Below are positions 18,039 to 30,473 of a DNA stretch of 64,000 nt, piece by piece. Each line of letters starts with the position of its first letter. The stretch's first letter is position 1. A program made the position numbers and the translations under genes. The notes beneath the pieces are model-generated. The model did not search any database. It was given only the letters and a program-made list of their open reading frames with translations, and was not told where the DNA came from. The stretch lies in assembly GCF_003634555.1 (NCBI RefSeq), contig NZ_RBKS01000001.1, positions 186,001 through 250,000 on the forward strand, read 5' to 3'. This DNA is from Frondihabitans australicus. Its GTDB lineage: Bacteria > Actinomycetota > Actinomycetes > Actinomycetales > Microbacteriaceae.

Positions 18039-20408
<2,370 letters not shown>

Positions 20409-22288: not shown

Positions 22289-24154
22289 GTGAGCATGCGC
22301 GGCGGTGGCGGCGGTGGCCGCGGTGGCGGAGGCGGTCGGGTCTCGGCGGCCGACGCCCGTGCGCAGAAGGCTCTGAACGCCGAGGCGCCGAAGATCCCCG
22401 ACCTCGTCAAGCGGATCCGCTCGCTCTTCTCCCCGCACGGCCGGGCGCTCGTCATCACGGTGATCCTGGTGCTCATCGGCGCGGCGATCAGCGTCCTCCC
22501 GCCGCTCCTGACGCAGCAGGCGTTCGACCGCGGGCTGTTCCCGAAGGGCGGCCCGAACCTGCCCGAGCTGTTCCGGCTGGTCGGCGAGATGGTGGCGCTC
22601 TGGATCCTGTCCGCCGCCATCGGCGTCTGGCAGACGTACCTCACCGCCACGGTGGGCAACAAGGTGATGGGAGCCCTGCGGATCCGGCTGTTCGGCCACC
22701 TGCAGCACATGGAGCTCGCTTTCTTCACCCGCACCAAGACCGGCATCATCCAGTCGCGCCTGCAGAACGACGTCGGCGGTGTGGCGAACGTGCTGAGCAA
22801 CACGATCTCGAGCGTGCTCGGCAACACGGTCACCGTGATCGCGGCGTTCGTGGCGATGCTGCTGCTGTCGTGGCAGATGACGATCGTCGCGGTGGTCCTC
22901 CTGCCGGTCCTCGTCATCGCGCAGCGGCGCGTCGGGCAGGTGCGTGCCCGGATCGCGACGGCGACGCAGGAGTCGCTGTCGGACATGACGGCCATCACGC
23001 AGGAGACGCTGAGCGTGTCCGGGATCCTGCTGGCCAAGAGCTTCAACCAGCAGCGCACCGAGATCGAGCGGTACTCGGCCGAGAACCGCAATCAGATCCG
23101 TCTGCAGGTGAAGCAGCAGATGAGCGGCCAGTGGTTCTTCGCCACGGTGCAGATCTTCCTGTCGATCATCCCCGCCGTGATCTACGTCGTGGCGGCGTAC
23201 CTGATCCAGGGCGGCGTCGATGTCACGGCGGGGACGATCGTCGCGTTCACGACCGTGCAGGCCCGTCTCACGTTCCCGCTCATGGCCCTCCTGCGCGTCG
23301 CCCTCGACATCCAGACGTCGGGCGCCCTGTTCGCCCGCATCTTCGAGTACCTCGACCTCCACCCGGCGATCCGCGACCCGAAGACGCCCAAGCACGTCCA
23401 CCGCGAGGCCCTCGGCCGGGTCGAGTTCGACGACGTCTCGTTCTCGTACCCCGACGCGGAGCCGGGGGCGAAGACGCTCGACGGCCTCTCGTTCGACATC
23501 GAACCGGGGCAGTTCGCCGCCTTCGTCGGCCCCTCGGGTGCCGGCAAGACGACGGTGTCGTACCTGATCCCGCGCTTCTACGAGGTCTCGGGCGGCGGAG
23601 TCCGCTTCGCCGGCGTCGACGTGCGCGACCTCGAGCAGGAGGAGCTCGTGTCGCACATCGGCATCGTGAGCCAGGAGACCTACCTGTTCCACGCCACCAT
23701 CGCCGACAACCTCCGCTACTCGCGGCCCGATGCGACGCAGGAGCAGCTGGAGCAGGCCGCCAGGCAGGCCAACATCCACGAGACGATCGCGTCGTTCCCC
23801 GACGGCTACGACACCGTCGTCGGCGAGCGGGGCTACCGGCTGTCGGGCGGCGAGAAGCAGCGGATCGCCATCGCCCGCGTGCTGCTGAAGGACCCAGCGG
23901 TCCTGGTGCTCGACGAGGCCACGAGCGCACTCGACTCGGTCTCCGAGCGGGTGGTGCAGGCCGCCCTCGACACCGCCGCCCGGGGCCGGACCACGATCGC
24001 CATCGCGCACCGGCTCTCGACCGTGCGGAGCGCCGACGTCATCTTCGTCGTGCAGGCCGGCCGCATCGTTGAGCGGGGCTCGCACGACGAGCTGCTCGAG
24101 CTCGGCGGGCTCTACGCGCAGCTCTACGACCAGCAGGTGTCGACCCCGGTCTGA
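22289..24154 (+). CDS. ABC exporter, fused membrane and ATPase domains
   Basis: A 621-residue half-transporter of the MsbA/LmrA type: Gly-rich N-terminus (two GGGGG runs), six-helix membrane domain (about residues 45-330) and an ATPase with Walker A GPSGAGKTT, signature LSGGEKQRIAIARVLL, Walker B VLVLDEATSALDS and H-loop IAHRLST. It should homodimerise and export a lipid or drug. The GTG start is used because a -10-like TACGCT lies 6 bases upstream; an ATG two codons later is also possible. Divergent from the LuxR/TPR regulator. Confidence 0.93.
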   Translation: MSMRGGGGGGRGGGGGRVSAADARAQKALNAEAPKIPDLVKRIRSLFSPHGRALVITVILVLIGAAISVLPPLLTQQAFDRGLFPKGGPNLPELFRLVGEMVALWILSAAIGVWQTYLTATVGNKVMGALRIRLFGHLQHMELAFFTRTKTGIIQSRLQNDVGGVANVLSNTISSVLGNTVTVIAAFVAMLLLSWQMTIVAVVLLPVLVIAQRRVGQVRARIATATQESLSDMTAITQETLSVSGILLAKSFNQQRTEIERYSAENRNQIRLQVKQQMSGQWFFATVQIFLSIIPAVIYVVAAYLIQGGVDVTAGTIVAFTTVQARLTFPLMALLRVALDIQTSGALFARIFEYLDLHPAIRDPKTPKHVHREALGRVEFDDVSFSYPDAEPGAKTLDGLSFDIEPGQFAAFVGPSGAGKTTVSYLIPRFYEVSGGGVRFAGVDVRDLEQEELVSHIGIVSQETYLFHATIADNLRYSRPDATQEQLEQAARQANIHETIASFPDGYDTVVGERGYRLSGGEKQRIAIARVLLKDPAVLVLDEATSALDSVSERVVQAALDTAARGRTTIAIAHRLSTVRSADVIFVVQAGRIVERGSHDELLELGGLYAQLYDQQVSTPV

Positions 24155-24278
24155 CCCTCCGGGATGGTTTGTACCCCGAACCGTCCTGCATTCGACCGTA
24201 CCGAAGGCGCAGGAGCAGTGGTAATCATTGCTCAGGGGCACTGAGACCCACTCATGGATGTCCCCCGAGGGAGTCGAC

Positions 24279-26456
24279 GTGAGCCAGGATTCCGCAGTCA
24301 GCAGCCCCGTTCCGCACCGCCGATTCCGGTGGCGAGCCCTGTTCGGGCGCGGATCGCTCGACATCCAGTCGAAGCTGCTGATCATGCTCCTGGCCGTGAG
24401 CGTCCTCGCGACGCTCGTCGTCGGAGCGATCGGCTACGTCTCGGGGCGGAACTCGCTCGAGCGGGCGGCCTTCCAGCAGGTAACGAACCTGCGTGAGTCG
24501 AGGTCGTCCGAGCTCAAGCGGACGATCGCCGAGATCCAGCAGGACGTGATCCTCGACAGCCGCAACCAGAGCGCGATCCAGGCGACCACGGCCTTCACGA
24601 ACGGCTTCGACGCCCTCCAGAGCTCGCACATCAGCGCAGACCAGACGTCGGCGCTCTCGTCGTTCTACGCCGACGACTTCGCGCCGGCGCTGGAGAAGAA
24701 CAGCGGGCAGACCACCGATCCGAGCCTGTTCGAGCCCACGTCGAACGCCCAGAAGTACCTGCAGTCGTACTACACGGTCCCGTTCAAGCTCGACTACGAC
24801 AACGCCCTCGCGGTCGACGACGCGGGCGACGGCAGCGCCTGGTCGGCCGCGCACGCGAAGTACCACGACTACTTCCGAGAGCTGGTGAAGCAGGCGGGCT
24901 ACGAGGACGTCCTGCTGCTCGACACGAAGGGGAACGTGGTCTACAGCGCGTACTCGGGCGTCGACCTCGGCACGAACGTGCTGACCGGGCCGTACTCGAA
25001 GTCGAACCTCACGACCGCCTACAACGCGTCGCTCCGCTCCAACTCCGTCGACTCGGCCGTCACCGCCGACTACGCGGACTACCAGCCCTCCCTGGACGCA
25101 CCGACCGCGTGGGTCGCGTCTCCCGTCGGCTCCGGCGCGAACGTCGAGGGAGTGCTCGCGATCCAGGTTCCGACCGCCACCATCAACGCCGTCATGACCG
25201 GCAACGGGCAGTGGAAGAGCGACGGTCTCGGCGACACGGGGGAGGCGTACATCGCCGGGCCCGACAAGCTCATGCGGTCGGACTCGCGCGAGCTCCTGCA
25301 GCACCCGAAGGAGTTCGAGAAGGACGCCGTCGCGAACGGCACGCCGGTGGCCACCGCGAAGGAGGAGGTCGCGCGGGGGAGCAGCGTGCTGCTGCAGCCG
25401 GTCAACACCACCGCGGTGAACGACGGGTTGAAGGGCAGGAGCGGCACCCTCATCGACAGCGACTACGTCGGCCACCAGGCGCTCGTCGCCTACGCGCCGC
25501 TGTCGCTGAACGGGCTCAACTACGTCATCGTCGCGAAGATCAAGGCCTCCGAGGCGTTCGCGCCCGTGACGACGTTCACTCGCAACCTGGCGCTGTCGAT
25601 GGCGGCGATCATCGTCATCGTCACGCTGCTGTCGCTGCTCCTCGCGCAGGTGTTCATCCGGCCGGTGAGACGCCTGCAGTCGGCGGTGAACCGGGTGAGC
25701 GCCGGCGACATCGGCGCCGAGGTGGAGACCAGGGCGGGCGACGAGTTCGGCGACCTCGGCATTTCGTTCAACGACATGAGCCGGAGCCTGAAGCTGAAAC
25801 AGGATCTTCTGGACGAGCAGAAGGCCGAGAACGACCGGCTCCTGCTCACCCTGATGCCGGCCGACGTCGCCGAACGCTACAAGCAGGGCGAGGAGACCAT
25901 CGCCGAGGACCACGCGGACGTCTCGGTGGCGTACGCCGACATCGTCGGCTTCGACGAGTTCGCGCGCGGCAAGAAGTCGGGCGAGGCGCTGGTCGCCCTC
26001 AACAGCATCTGGAAGCAGTTCGACGAGGCGGCCGACCGGCTGGGCGTCGAGAAGGTGCGGTCGACGCAGCGCGGCTATCTCGCCAACTGCGGCCTGACCG
26101 TGCCGAGGGTCGACAACGCCCGCCGCATCGTCGACTTCACGCTCGAGCAGCAGGCGATCGTCGAGCGGTTCAACGTCTCCACCGGGACGAAGCTGTCGCT
26201 GCGCGCGGGCCTCGACACCGGAAGCGTCACCAGCGGCCTCATCGGCCGCACGAACCTGGTCTACGACATGTGGGGCGACGCCGTGAGCCTGGCCTTCCGG
26301 GTGCAGGGCACCGGGGCGGTGCCGGGCATCTACGCCACCCAGCGCGTCATCGACAAGCTCGGCGACAGCGTCGACTCGACCGAGGAGGGCAGCGTGGAGA
26401 CCTCGACCGGGCCACAGCGCGTCTACCGCATCGCAGGGGAGTCGAACCGTGCCTGA
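24279..26456 (+). CDS. Membrane receptor with HAMP and degenerate class III cyclase domain
   Basis: A 725-residue protein: helix 1 (about 33-55), a large extracellular Cache-like sensor, helix 2 (about 437-459), HAMP, a LLLTLMPADVAERYKQGE linker and a C-terminal adenylate/guanylate cyclase homology domain (about 545-720). The first metal-binding Asp554 (YADIVGF), Asp663 (YDMWGD) and Arg674 are kept. The segment EKVRSTQRGYLANCGL replaces the usual EKIKTIGDAYM pattern, so the second metal Asp is Arg598, and the catalytic Asn is Ser670. The domain is therefore predicted inactive or altered. The start is GTG after GAGGGAG. The stop overlaps the channel gene by 8 bases. Confidence 0.88.
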   Translation: MSQDSAVSSPVPHRRFRWRALFGRGSLDIQSKLLIMLLAVSVLATLVVGAIGYVSGRNSLERAAFQQVTNLRESRSSELKRTIAEIQQDVILDSRNQSAIQATTAFTNGFDALQSSHISADQTSALSSFYADDFAPALEKNSGQTTDPSLFEPTSNAQKYLQSYYTVPFKLDYDNALAVDDAGDGSAWSAAHAKYHDYFRELVKQAGYEDVLLLDTKGNVVYSAYSGVDLGTNVLTGPYSKSNLTTAYNASLRSNSVDSAVTADYADYQPSLDAPTAWVASPVGSGANVEGVLAIQVPTATINAVMTGNGQWKSDGLGDTGEAYIAGPDKLMRSDSRELLQHPKEFEKDAVANGTPVATAKEEVARGSSVLLQPVNTTAVNDGLKGRSGTLIDSDYVGHQALVAYAPLSLNGLNYVIVAKIKASEAFAPVTTFTRNLALSMAAIIVIVTLLSLLLAQVFIRPVRRLQSAVNRVSAGDIGAEVETRAGDEFGDLGISFNDMSRSLKLKQDLLDEQKAENDRLLLTLMPADVAERYKQGEETIAEDHADVSVAYADIVGFDEFARGKKSGEALVALNSIWKQFDEAADRLGVEKVRSTQRGYLANCGLTVPRVDNARRIVDFTLEQQAIVERFNVSTGTKLSLRAGLDTGSVTSGLIGRTNLVYDMWGDAVSLAFRVQGTGAVPGIYATQRVIDKLGDSVDSTEEGSVETSTGPQRVYRIAGESNRA

Positions 26457-27909
26457 GCTCTGGCGCCAGTCGTGGTTCTGGCCGGCCGTCTTCGTGGTGG
26501 TCGGCCTCCCGATCCTGCTCATCGTCCTCACCGAGCTGGCGTCGAGCCTCGAGCGGCGCGGAAACGGCATCGCGTCGCTGGTGCGCCTCGCCCGCAACTT
26601 CGTCGTGCCGACGGCCGCGGTCGCGGTGCTGCTCGCCGAGATCACCAAGGCGGTCGGCTCGACCGACTTCACCTGGTCGAAGCTCGTCACGACGCTGTTC
26701 GGGTTCCTCGCCCTGCTGTTCATCCTCAACACGTTCAACCTGGTGCTGTTCAGGAACGCGAAGGAGGGCTCGTGGCGCGAGCGACTGCCCTCGATCTTCC
26801 TCGACATCGCGAGGATCATCCTCATCGCGATCGGTCTCGCGATCCTGTTCAAGCTGGTCTGGGGCACCGACGTCGCCGGGCTCTTCACGGCCCTCGGAGT
26901 CACGTCGATCGTCCTCGGCCTCGCGCTGCAGGGAGCGATCGGCAGCGTCGTGTCGGGCCTGCTGCTACTGTTCGAGCAGCCGTTCCGGCTCGGCGACTAC
27001 CTCGACGCCGGAGGCACGCGCGGCCGGGTCGTCGAGGTCAACTGGCGCGCCGTGCACATCGACACCGGCAACGGAATCCAGATCATCCCCAACGCGTCGC
27101 TCGCCGGCTCGTCGTTCACCAACCTCAGCCTCGGCGGCCGCGCCTTCACGGTGTCGACGAAGGTCACCTTCACCACCGACGACCCGCCGGCCGAGGTGGT
27201 GGCGCTGCTCGTCGGCGTCGCCTCCGGGCTGCCGTCGCTCTACCCGAAGACGACCCCGGTGGCGGTGCCGCTCGGCGGCTCGGACTACGAGCTCTCGTTC
27301 GAGGTCCGCGGCCCCGGTGTCGAAGGCGAGGCGTTCGCGATGTTCCGCAGCAGGATCTGGTACGCCGCCCGGCGAGCCGGTCTCGGCCTCGACGGCGACA
27401 CCACCGACGCCTTCGTGACACCCGAGCGCACCCAGGAGGCCCTCCGCCAGATCTCGCCGCTCTTGCACCTGACCGGAGACGACTCGACTGCGCTCCTGCC
27501 CGTCGTGCACCTCGAGCGCTACGCCGCCGGCGAGACCGCGGCGCAGGGCGGCGTGATCCCCACCTCGGTGCAGTTCATCCTGCGAGGCGTCGCCACTCTC
27601 GGGGTGCCGCTCGCCGACGGCGGACTCCTGCCCGCGGGCCGCATCGAGGCCGGCGACTACATCGGGCAGACGGCCCTGACCCGGGAGCCCCTGTCGATGT
27701 CGGTCGTCGCCGCCACGGAGCTCGCCGTGCTGCGCATGCCGGTCGACGTGCTCGACGCGCTCGTGCGGACGAGGCCCCGCCTCGCGCGCGAGCTCGGCGA
27801 GGTGATCGAGCGGCGGCACCGCATCGCCCGGGACGCGCTCGCCGCGGCGACGCCGTCCGAGCTCGGCACCACACGTCTCGCCCCGTCACACTCCAGGGGC
27901 GCTCGTTAG
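26449..27909 (+). CDS. MscS-family channel with C-terminal cyclic-nucleotide-binding-like domain
   Basis: A 486-residue membrane protein. Several N-terminal helices lead to the pore helix TSIVLGLALQGAIGSVVSGLLL, then the MscS beta domain (FEQPFRLGDYLDAGGTRGRV, IIPNASLAGSSFTNLS). Residues about 345-450 form a CNB-like barrel (GRIEAGDYIGQTALTREPLS). Canonical CNB domains have a Glu and an Arg for the ribose and cyclic phosphate; here these positions read Asp403 and Leu415. The architecture matches the bCNG subgroup of MscS channels. It overlaps the cyclase-like receptor gene by 8 bases, so the two are coupled. It probably gates ions by a signal passed from the receptor rather than by classical cAMP binding. 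Confidence 0.88.
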   Translation: MPELWRQSWFWPAVFVVVGLPILLIVLTELASSLERRGNGIASLVRLARNFVVPTAAVAVLLAEITKAVGSTDFTWSKLVTTLFGFLALLFILNTFNLVLFRNAKEGSWRERLPSIFLDIARIILIAIGLAILFKLVWGTDVAGLFTALGVTSIVLGLALQGAIGSVVSGLLLLFEQPFRLGDYLDAGGTRGRVVEVNWRAVHIDTGNGIQIIPNASLAGSSFTNLSLGGRAFTVSTKVTFTTDDPPAEVVALLVGVASGLPSLYPKTTPVAVPLGGSDYELSFEVRGPGVEGEAFAMFRSRIWYAARRAGLGLDGDTTDAFVTPERTQEALRQISPLLHLTGDDSTALLPVVHLERYAAGETAAQGGVIPTSVQFILRGVATLGVPLADGGLLPAGRIEAGDYIGQTALTREPLSMSVVAATELAVLRMPVDVLDALVRTRPRLARELGEVIERRHRIARDALAAATPSELGTTRLAPSHSRGAR

Positions 27910-27918: not shown

Positions 27919-29283
27919 GTGAAGTTCGCCAAGACCGTCATCGACCTCGTCGGCAACACTCCGCTCGTGCAACTCAACAGTGTCACCGAGGGGATCTCGG
28001 CGACCGTCCTGGCGAAGGTCGAGTACCTCAACCCCGGCGGCTCGTCGAAAGACCGCATCGCGACGCGCATCATCGACGCGGCCGAGCGCGACGGTCTCCT
28101 GAAGCCCGGCGGCACGATCGTCGAGCCGACGAGCGGCAACACCGGCGTCGGGCTCGCGCTCGTCGCCCAGCAGCGCGGCTACCGGTGCGTGTTCGTCCTG
28201 CCCGACAAGGTCGGCGAGGACAAGCGGAACGTCCTGACGGCCTACGGCGCCGAGATCGTCGTCACCCCGACCGCCGTCGCGCCCGACAGCCCCGAGTCGT
28301 ACTACAGCGTCTCCGACCGACTCGTGGCCGAGATTCCCGGCGCCTTCAAGCCGAACCAGTACGAGAACCCCAACGGTCCGCTCAGTCACTACGAGACCAC
28401 CGGCCCGGAGATCTGGCGCGACACCGATCAGAAGATCACGCACTTCGTCGCGGGCGTCGGCACCGGGGGCACCATCTCGGGCACCGGCCGCTTCCTCAAG
28501 GAGGCGTCGAACGGAGCCGTGACCATCGTCGGCGCCGACCCCGAGGGCAGCGTCTACTCGGGCGGCACCGGTCGCCCCTACCTCGTCGAGGGCGTGGGCG
28601 AGGACTTCTGGCCGGGAGCCTACGACGGCTCGGTCGTCGACCGGATCATCGCCGTGTCGGACGCCCGCTCGTTCGACATCACGCGCCGCCTCGCCCGCGA
28701 AGAAGGCCTGCTGGTCGGCGGCTCGAGCGGCATGGCCGTCGCCGCCGCGCTCGACGTGGCGCGCGAGCTCGGCCCCGACGACGTCGTCGTCGTGCTCCTG
28801 CCCGACTCGGGCCGCGGCTACCTCGGCAAGATCTTCAACGAGAAGTGGATGCGCTCCTACGGGTTCAGCCAGGAGTCCGACGAGCGCACCGTCGGCGACC
28901 TCATCGCGTCGAAGTCCGGCGAGCTGCCCGACCTCGTGCACGCGCACCCGTCCGACACCGTCCGCGACGTCGTGCAGATCATGGCGAAGTACGGCGTCTC
29001 GCAGATGCCGGTCCTCTCGGCCGAGCCGCCCGTCGTCATCGGCGAGGTCGTCGGCGCGGTGGAGGAGAAGGCGCTGCTCGAGCAGGTCTTCTCGGGAGAG
29101 GCGCAGATGACCGATCCGATCGAGCGCTTCACCGGCGCGCCCCTCGCGCTCATCGGCTTGAACGAGCCGATCACCGCCGCCCGCCGCGCCCTCGAGCAGA
29201 GCGACGCGCTGCTCGTGACGAGCGACGGCAAGCCCGCCGCCGTCATCACGCGGCACGACCTCCTCGCCTTCTTGTCCGAATAG
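27919..29283 (+). CDS. cbs: Cystathionine beta-synthase with CBS domain pair
   Basis: A 454-residue PLP enzyme that joins homocysteine and serine. The PLP lysine is Lys44 in NPGGSSKDR; PTSGNTGVGLA and the phosphate-binding GVGTGGTISGTGR loop follow. The C-terminal 125 residues form two CBS motifs, possible regulatory sites. O-acetylserine sulfhydrylases lack this C-terminal pair, and Micrococcales enzymes of this layout are called cystathionine beta-synthase. The following gene makes the other half of transsulfuration. The start is GTG on a leaderless message. Confidence 0.92.
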   Translation: MKFAKTVIDLVGNTPLVQLNSVTEGISATVLAKVEYLNPGGSSKDRIATRIIDAAERDGLLKPGGTIVEPTSGNTGVGLALVAQQRGYRCVFVLPDKVGEDKRNVLTAYGAEIVVTPTAVAPDSPESYYSVSDRLVAEIPGAFKPNQYENPNGPLSHYETTGPEIWRDTDQKITHFVAGVGTGGTISGTGRFLKEASNGAVTIVGADPEGSVYSGGTGRPYLVEGVGEDFWPGAYDGSVVDRIIAVSDARSFDITRRLAREEGLLVGGSSGMAVAAALDVARELGPDDVVVVLLPDSGRGYLGKIFNEKWMRSYGFSQESDERTVGDLIASKSGELPDLVHAHPSDTVRDVVQIMAKYGVSQMPVLSAEPPVVIGEVVGAVEEKALLEQVFSGEAQMTDPIERFTGAPLALIGLNEPITAARRALEQSDALLVTSDGKPAAVITRHDLLAFLSE

Positions 29284-29321: not shown

Positions 29322-30473
29322 GTGACCTCCTCCTTCGAGACCCGCGCCATCCACGACGGTCAGGCGTTCGACCCGACCACGGGCGCCGTCGTCCCGCCGA
29401 TCTACCAGACCTCGACGTTCGTGCAGGACGGCATCGGCGGCTTCCGCTCCGGGTACGAGTACGGCCGGTCGGCGAACCCGACCCGCGACTCGCTGCAGAC
29501 GGTGCTCGCCTCCCTCGAGGGCGGATCACACGCGTTCAGCTTCGCGTCGGGGCTGGCTGCCGAGGACTCGCTCCTGCGCGCCGTCCTCTCGCCCGGTTCG
29601 CGCGTCGTCATGGGCAACGACGTCTACGGCGGCACCCACCGCCTTGTGAACCGGGTGTGGCGTCCGTGGGGCGTGGACCTCGTCACCGTCGACATGAGCG
29701 ACCTCGACGCCGTCCGCGCCGTCGTCGCGGCCGCGCCGACCACCGTGCTCTGGGTCGAGACGCCGTCGAACCCGCTCATGAAGATCTCCGACATCGCGGC
29801 CCTCGCGTCGATCGGGCACGACGCGGGCGCGCTCGTCGTCGTCGACAACACGTTCGCGTCGCCGTACATCCAGCAGCCGCTCGCGCTCGGCGCCGACGTC
29901 GTGGTGCACTCGACCACGAAGTACCTCGGCGGTCACTCCGACACCCTCGGCGGGGCTCTGGTGCTGCAGGATGCCGAGCTGGCCGAGAAGGTCGGCTTCA
30001 TCCAATTCGGCGTCGGCGCGGTGTCCGCTCCCATGGAGGCCTGGCTCACGGTCCGCGGCATCAAGACCCTCGGCGTGCGCGTCGACCGGCACTCCGAGAA
30101 CGCGCAGGCGGTCGCCGAGGCCGTCGTCGGCCACCCGGCGGCGGCGCAGGTGTTCTACCCGGGCCTGTCGTCGCACCCAGGCCACGAGCTGGCCGCCCGT
30201 CAGATGAAGCGCTTCGGCGGAATGCTCTCGGTGGGGCTCGCCGGGGGAGCGGCGGCGGCGCGGCAGTTCGCCGAGGCGACGGAGATCTTCCAGCTCGCGG
30301 AGTCGCTCGGCGGCGTCGAGTCGCTGATCGGCTACCCGACCGCGATGACCCACGCGTCGGTCATCGGCACCGAGCTCGAGGTGCCCGACAACATCGTACG
30401 GCTCTCCGTCGGCATCGAGTCGGTCGACGACCTCGTCGCCGACGTCGTGCAGGCCCTCGACCGCGTGCAGTAG
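29322..30473 (+). CDS. metB: Cystathionine gamma-synthase / gamma-lyase
   Basis: A 383-residue Cys/Met-metabolism PLP enzyme. It starts with FETRAIHDGQAFDPTTGAVV, has YEYGRSANPTRD, the PLP Lys200 in HSTTKYLGGHSD and SVGIESVDDLVADV near the end. Synthase and lyase members cannot be told apart reliably by eye. Following cystathionine beta-synthase by 38 bases, the pair supports reverse transsulfuration (homocysteine to cysteine), so a lyase activity is equally possible. Confidence 0.93.
   Translation: MTSSFETRAIHDGQAFDPTTGAVVPPIYQTSTFVQDGIGGFRSGYEYGRSANPTRDSLQTVLASLEGGSHAFSFASGLAAEDSLLRAVLSPGSRVVMGNDVYGGTHRLVNRVWRPWGVDLVTVDMSDLDAVRAVVAAAPTTVLWVETPSNPLMKISDIAALASIGHDAGALVVVDNTFASPYIQQPLALGADVVVHSTTKYLGGHSDTLGGALVLQDAELAEKVGFIQFGVGAVSAPMEAWLTVRGIKTLGVRVDRHSENAQAVAEAVVGHPAAAQVFYPGLSSHPGHELAARQMKRFGGMLSVGLAGGAAAARQFAEATEIFQLAESLGGVESLIGYPTAMTHASVIGTELEVPDNIVRLSVGIESVDDLVADVVQALDRVQ

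Follow-up and report, generated by a model that had tools for sequence, protein, structure and literature searches.

A window of 64,000 bases, positions 186001–250000 of the 4.04 Mb one-contig genome of Frondihabitans australicus (Microbacteriaceae), carries two overlapping plus-strand genes that we analysed as a pair: a membrane receptor with a class III cyclase domain (24279–26456 of the window) and an MscS-type channel with a C-terminal cyclic nucleotide-binding (CNB) domain (26449–27909). Comparison with relatives shows, at the level of residues, a receptor that has the cyclase fold and lacks the standard catalytic set, a channel whose CNB domain lacks the cyclic-phosphate contacts, and two genes that are kept together. 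Because the receptor site and the CNB phosphate contacts are both lost, the sensor of the receptor may work the channel directly and not through cyclic AMP (cAMP). On balance we lean towards reading the pair as a two-gene, cAMP-independent receptor-channel module that would signal by protein contact.

Residues lost from the cyclase domain and the channel cassette

The cyclase domain of the receptor (25902–26423, + strand) is recognised as Guanylate_cyc PF00211 (Pfam E 5.3e-28; residues 559–732 of the translation P0001). We compared 104 distinct pair-type cyclase domains, gathered by likeness to the window receptor, with a control set of 8 rows (6 distinct domains), which are ordinary cyclases from the same search without such a channel in the flank examined. 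The metal, Lys, purine, transition-state and phosphate-loop positions have the roles generally known for class III cyclases. The complete catalytic set, which reads DKDDNR in 8/8 control rows, occurs in none of the 104 pair-type domains; four of the six letters are the most that any domain retains, and the window copy keeps three. An earlier note on this DNA had proposed that the cyclase domain is degenerate, and would have given this up for a homologue in the same neighbourhood with a complete catalytic set. Such a homologue was looked for among the 104 and not found, and the loss extends across the family.

Receptor residues are given here in the numbering of that note, which is the P0001 number minus 17, and all codons lie on the + strand. 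The second metal-binding Asp is gone in 102 of the 104 domains, the window having Arg598 (codon 26070–26072) at a position that holds Asn 44, Gly 20, Ser 12, Gln 9, Glu 8, Arg 4, Thr 2, Ala 2, Asp 2 and Lys 1 times. The first metal position is kept as Asp554 (25938–25940; Asp 74, Glu 29, Asn 1), and Asp663 (26265–26267) at the purine position is present in every domain. At the transition-state positions the window copy has Ser670 (26286–26288; Asn 60, Ser 28, Asp 13, Thr 3) for Asn and keeps Arg674 (26298–26300; Arg 57, Gln 41, others 6). These five residues are as the earlier note had them. Two changes can be added to its description: Arg594 (26058–26060; Arg 98, His 5, Gln 1) replaces the substrate Lys, and Asp559 (25953–25955) replaces the phosphate-loop Thr, a position with an acid (Asp or Glu) in 103/104 domains and with Thr in 8/8 control rows. 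The Arg598 and Ser670 replacements themselves, which the note put forward as possibly conserved, are lineage-local (Arg at 598 in 4/104, Ser at 670 in 28/104); it is the losses that are conserved.

Set beside competent class III cyclases, the window domain has the fold and lacks the two metal-binding Asp as a pair. Foldseek matched the receptor to solved cyclase domains at TM-scores of up to 0.85 by target, and the fold is common to Rv1625c, a solved receptor-type class III cyclase (0.84 by target to 7yz9); the window family differs from cyclases of that type in its want of any complete catalytic set. Transition-state Asn and Arg do not occur together on the window chain, which has Ser670 with the retained Arg674, nor is there a partner cyclase to supply them: no second PF00211 match was found elsewhere in the window genome, which rules out an active site shared with another such cyclase. 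PF01295, which represents another cyclase class, has no match in this genome. It does have one CYTH match, which leaves room for a class IV source of cAMP.

Non-pair domains from a sample of the class (the best-scoring domain per genome, four further loci with a cut stretch being dropped) kept both metal Asp and the Arg in 24/24 cases and the Asn in 23/24. Judged by these residues, the pair-type family as a whole has lost its catalytic set. The nearest to complete are six of the 104 domains, which have acids at both metal positions together with Asn and Arg (DREDNR or EREDNR), so that residual cyclase activity may remain in those six; two of them (L042 and L043) have a one-residue insertion beside the site. 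Near-complete sites were also seen in the Microbacteriaceae domain survey described below, namely DREDNR (L175), DRDDNA and ERDDSR.

The CNB domain of the channel (27514–27771, + strand; cNMP_binding PF00027, Pfam E 5.6e-8; residues 356–441 of the translation P0002) has a degenerate phosphate cassette. Aligned in the register of the StHK CNB (4d7s, E 0.003), it has Gln407 in place of the cassette Glu and Leu415 in place of the Arg. Channel sequence was readable in 99 of 104 rows, one genome being represented twice (L011 and L082), and in these neither the cassette Glu (0/99) nor Arg at 415 (0/99) is found; Arg at 418, in another register, occurs in 12/99, and a family-specific Arg412 is kept in 95/99. 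The CNB fold is retained (Foldseek to MloK1 4muv, TM-score 0.81 by target). Across the family the CNB pocket is, by its residues, degenerate, as the earlier note had supposed for the window copy.

PF00027, like PF00211, has no second match elsewhere in the window genome. Since the only matches to both families lie in the pair, there is neither a partner cyclase nor a second CNB receptor of these families, and cAMP signalling through them may be absent from the genome. Bacterial cyclic nucleotide-gated (bCNG) channels, whose properties are general background, have the MscS-then-CNB order in common with the window channel. The window family departs from them in its missing cassette Glu and Arg (99/99) and in being tied to a receptor gene.

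Pairing of the receptor and channel genes

The receptor stop codon (TGA, 26454–26456) falls inside the channel gene, which starts with GTG at 26449–26451, so the 8-base overlap (26449–26456) reported by the earlier note is real. Its proposal that the neighbourhood might be conserved is likewise borne out. A search of 60 relatives matched the receptor in 5, namely the window genome, 3/6 other members of the genus and 1/30 other members of the family, with 0/23 from the order. Searched class-wide, 24/296 genomes, the window genome included, matched at E 1e-30; in three of these (G102, G247 and G276) only ordinary cyclases were matched. Outside the window, 26/26 homologues of full or nearly full length (L003–L026, L030 and L031; the N-terminal fragment L034 was left out) have the channel directly downstream, its match beginning anywhere from 8 bases inside the receptor gene to 99 bases past it.

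A second set of relatives, the best 80 of 525, is mainly from Microbacteriaceae and Mycobacteriaceae, and three of its loci repeat the first set (L036, L077 and L082 are L004, L006 and L011). The channel is downstream in 79/80 of these loci, in some of which a contig end cuts it. The exception (L078:4260–8244, from a metagenome-assembled genome of Mycobacterium sp.) has 3,985 bases after the receptor gene with no channel match. The Mycobacteriaceae loci of this set have a receptor of the same architecture adjoining an MscS-CNB channel, so the pairing is not confined to the window genome. When 150 Microbacteriaceae were surveyed independently for PF00211, 25 domains were found in 24 positive genomes; 20 domains were pair-type, all accompanied by a channel (20/20), and the other five had none in the flank examined. 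For 19 of the 20 pair-type genomes, the pair-type domain was the sole PF00211 match. Receptor-channel pairing is near-universal in the sampled loci.

To seek more distant channels, 396 genomes of the phylum were scanned with a channel profile, and 19 matched: 13 with a channel of the window family (the window genome included), three with a distant full-length channel (E about 1e-65 to 1e-68; G374, G424 and G626) and a further three with a partial match. In each of the three distant genomes (loci L136, L137 and L138) a receptor-like gene stands on either side of the channel, and the six receptors are all incomplete (HKSDTG, AQEGGE, TKDDTV, TRDGRA, TRESRA and TKDDTA, the first position being hard to align). 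The receptor-channel partnership is kept in these deep relatives, with other lesions. A receptor-channel-receptor order is also found in Mycobacterium simulans (L108:3923–9747), where both catalytic sets are incomplete and the second reads DRNDNQ.

Within one genus the pair is present, absent or relocated as a unit. In the window it is preceded by a gene that we take from its sequence to be ABC-transporter-like (22289–24154) and followed by two that are presumably cystathionine beta- and gamma-synthase-like genes of transsulfuration type (27919–29283 and 29322–30473). Three congeners lacking the pair (G002, G004 and G006) have the transporter and first synthase genes adjoining, as an empty site; in a fourth (G003) the transporter and synthase genes also adjoin, and the pair sits elsewhere in the genome. 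Among the best 80 of 525 with enough flank, the synthase gene comes next in 14/39 Microbacteriaceae and 0/25 Mycobacteriaceae loci, and the transporter gene comes before in 14/40 and 0/26, respectively. These flanking genes are outside the unit.

Two loci stand apart. The pair is present, with 48% receptor identity, in L081, a metagenome-assembled genome labelled Acidobacteria bacterium, which is either a true transfer or a wrongly binned contig. In Leifsonia aquatica (L043:5900–6250) a frameshift near the receptor end, whether a sequencing error or real, puts receptor and channel in one open frame; a receptor-channel fusion was rejected there, the receptor end being in another frame than in the unfused near relative L042.

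The mycobacterial pair is probably, as we assume from fitting locus numbers, Rv2435c–Rv2434c of M. tuberculosis; the likeness is that of a cyclase-annotated receptor with a sensor adjoining a membrane protein, and the kinship to the window pair is presumed, in keeping with these locus numbers. The passages available to us list Rv2435c as a mammalian-type adenylate cyclase (PMC3961136), give it a double Cache sensor (PMC4822843) and report that it is expressed (PMC3938503), while Rv2434c is described as a membrane protein with a possible part in cAMP signalling (PMC11205783). Another paper (Shenoy et al., 2004; PMC2447327) is indexed with 10 mentions of Rv2435c and one of the phrase "inactive cyclase domain", and Rv2435c may already be described there as inactive. 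A primer for MSMEG_4477 of M. smegmatis given in PMC3961136 (Tables 1 and 2) reads SLAYQL in frame 1, resembling the degenerate motif of the family. This lead was dropped: the ortholog table of that paper, in the part available, places MSMEG_4477 with Rv1900 and MSMEG_3578 with Rv2435, and the primer was found in 0/191 loci.

Signalling by contact and its alternatives

If the module works by contact, an extracellular cue would be read by the extracytoplasmic sensor that lies between the two transmembrane segments of the receptor, where a dCache_1-like stretch (24873–25514, +; P0001 216–429) scores 32.4 bits, short of the Pfam cut-off of 45. The signal would pass via the HAMP domain (25638–25793, +; P0001 471–522, Pfam E 4.2e-12) and the following helix (25794–25895, +) to a dimer of the pseudo-cyclase. 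This dimer might touch the cytoplasmic part of the channel, at the CNB domain or the vestibule, and change the channel state. Channel opening would then be set by the receptor, perhaps with membrane tension, and by no diffusible messenger. Of the receptor stretches compared, the HAMP-to-cyclase helix is on average the most conserved (mean top-residue fraction 0.72), and its ratio of nonsynonymous to synonymous change (dN/dS) against three congeners is 0.08–0.11. The earlier note had itself suggested a direct protein-to-channel signal, or a nucleotide-sensing complex, in place of cAMP production; the catalytic loss, the pairing, the CNB degeneracy and the sole PF00211 and PF00027 matches support that interpretation in part, and the conservation of particular replacement letters drops out of it.

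Several results count against signalling by contact or are neutral towards it. The CNB domain changes faster than the rest of the pair (dN/dS 0.41, 0.38 and 0.29; the least constrained part in all comparisons but one), which is not expected of a tight interface. Over 96 of the 104 pairs, covariation between receptor columns (cyclase and HAMP) and channel columns (transmembrane and CNB) is enriched, but shuffles within clades gave the same enrichment, and none is found beyond ancestry. Receptor and channel trees, compared over 72 pairs after 9 of the best-80 loci were dropped, are congruent (r 0.947), with 28/35 strong receptor splits present in the channel tree and 5 contradicted by strong channel splits; such congruence is expected from linkage alone and shows co-inheritance only. 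The half-kept cyclase pocket, with its purine Asp, first-metal acid and basic residue at the Lys position, would also suit ligand binding. A literature search covering titles and abstract openings, with most subscription journals outside its coverage, found no description of such a receptor-channel module, and neither an activity nor a structure was found for any member of the pair family.

A broader reading, which we hold with some doubt, is that this is a widespread actinobacterial MscS channel operated by its receptor through contact, with an abandoned cyclase as the output, an abandoned CNB as the input and no second messenger. As part of it, this mode of operation could, equally tentatively, be hidden under adenylate cyclase and cNMP-binding annotations. 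As far as we are aware, little is known of receptor-operated ion channels in bacteria. If true, the reading would provide a compact two-gene receptor-operated channel with many natural homologues; a family of mycobacterial proteins, the "adenylate cyclases" and the membrane proteins labelled "cNMP-binding", would then have to be re-annotated and left out of any count of cAMP enzymes and cAMP receptors.

The main rival to contact signalling, unlikely though deserving of serious weight, is ligand sensing by the altered pockets: the pseudo-cyclase may still bind a purine nucleotide, or the CNB domain a ligand without charge, for instance a nucleoside, and so set the channel with or instead of an external cue. 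This would suit the purine Asp (104/104), the Arg or His at the Lys position (103/104) and the first-metal acid (103/104), as well as the retained CNB fold with its Arg412 (95/99). It has a precedent in the regulatory subunits of trypanosomatid protein kinase A (PKA), whose CNB domain, according to the available portion of the source, has lost the cassette Arg and answers nucleosides and not cAMP (PMC10959531); a cAMP-converted mutant of this PKA (6h4g) appears among the Foldseek matches of the channel. The likeness is one of analogy and not kinship; the trypanosomatid subunit acts on a kinase, and its ribose-binding Glu has no demonstrated counterpart in the window CNB. Moreover, the acid that replaces the phosphate-loop Thr in 103/104 domains is unfavourable for a triphosphate, and the low AlphaFold confidence at model residues 669–680, beside the purine site, means that the geometry of the pocket cannot be judged.

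Improbable in our estimate is a weak or unusual cyclase with a channel gated by cAMP or cGMP through a non-standard pocket. The six DREDNR or EREDNR domains and the surveyed DRDDNA and ERDDSR sites are in its favour, and the available passages of PMC3961136 and PMC4822843 give Rv2435c as an adenylate cyclase. It has to face a family in which at most four of six catalytic letters survive, with three in the window copy, and in which the CNB cassette residues are absent from 99/99 channels; an available passage of PMC3961136 also counts five H37Rv cyclases without shown activity, of which it names only Rv1359. An ordinary cAMP relay, with an active cyclase and a cAMP-gated channel, is disfavoured by the residues at both sites.

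The genes might instead be co-transcribed and act apart, the receptor regulating something else and the channel being an ordinary osmotic valve. The failure to find covariation beyond ancestry agrees with this, yet we regard it as very improbable, as the pairing persists over two families and, rearranged, in three deep relatives, and, among members of one genus, both genes of the cassette are missing or found elsewhere together.

That the cyclase domain is merely decaying is least credible, and barely so: presence is patchy (a pair-type domain in 20/150 sampled Microbacteriaceae) and a few copies have an in-frame stop or frameshift (L009, L053 and L043), but the pseudo-cyclase is under purifying selection within the genus (dN/dS 0.25, 0.28 and 0.32 against the three congeners, close to the 0.21, 0.28 and 0.30 of the sensor), and residues invariant in the family and not seen in the control rows, Arg616 among them (104/104; Ala or Ser in the controls), indicate new constraint. 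In a fourth, more distant comparison dN/dS came to 0.67 at low synonymous difference, and no weight is put on that value. A Pycsar-type anti-phage system was also considered and set aside, neither protein matching any PADLOC family at E up to 0.01.

Gene starts, models and a neighbouring reading frame

The receptor gene was delimited from its open reading frame and translation, with Pfam and AlphaFold, and comprises a first transmembrane segment, the extracytoplasmic sensor, a second transmembrane segment, HAMP, the helix and the degenerate cyclase domain. Its GTG start at 24279 has GAGGGAG at 24267–24273, five bases upstream; other in-frame starts are TTG at 24228 and ATG at 24258. Purine-rich sites precede the starts of both the receptor and the channel genes. 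The AlphaFold model of the receptor has a mean pLDDT (predicted local confidence) of 75.9, falling below 50 in the cyclase-domain stretches at model residues 621–628 and 669–680.

For the channel, the open reading frame, Pfam, solved relatives, AlphaFold and Foldseek agree on an MscS-type protein, and Pfam and Foldseek place the MscS pore and beta-domain before the CNB. The beta-domain (MS_channel_2nd, Pfam E 2.1e-17) spans 26938–27129 on the + strand (P0002 164–227). Mean pLDDT of the channel model is 78.3, with blocks in residues 231–460 of at least 87, and Foldseek matched it to MscS channels and to CNB domains.

Elsewhere in the window, on the minus strand at 18039–20408, there is a large open reading frame that, from its sequence, we take to encode a UvrA-like ATPase.

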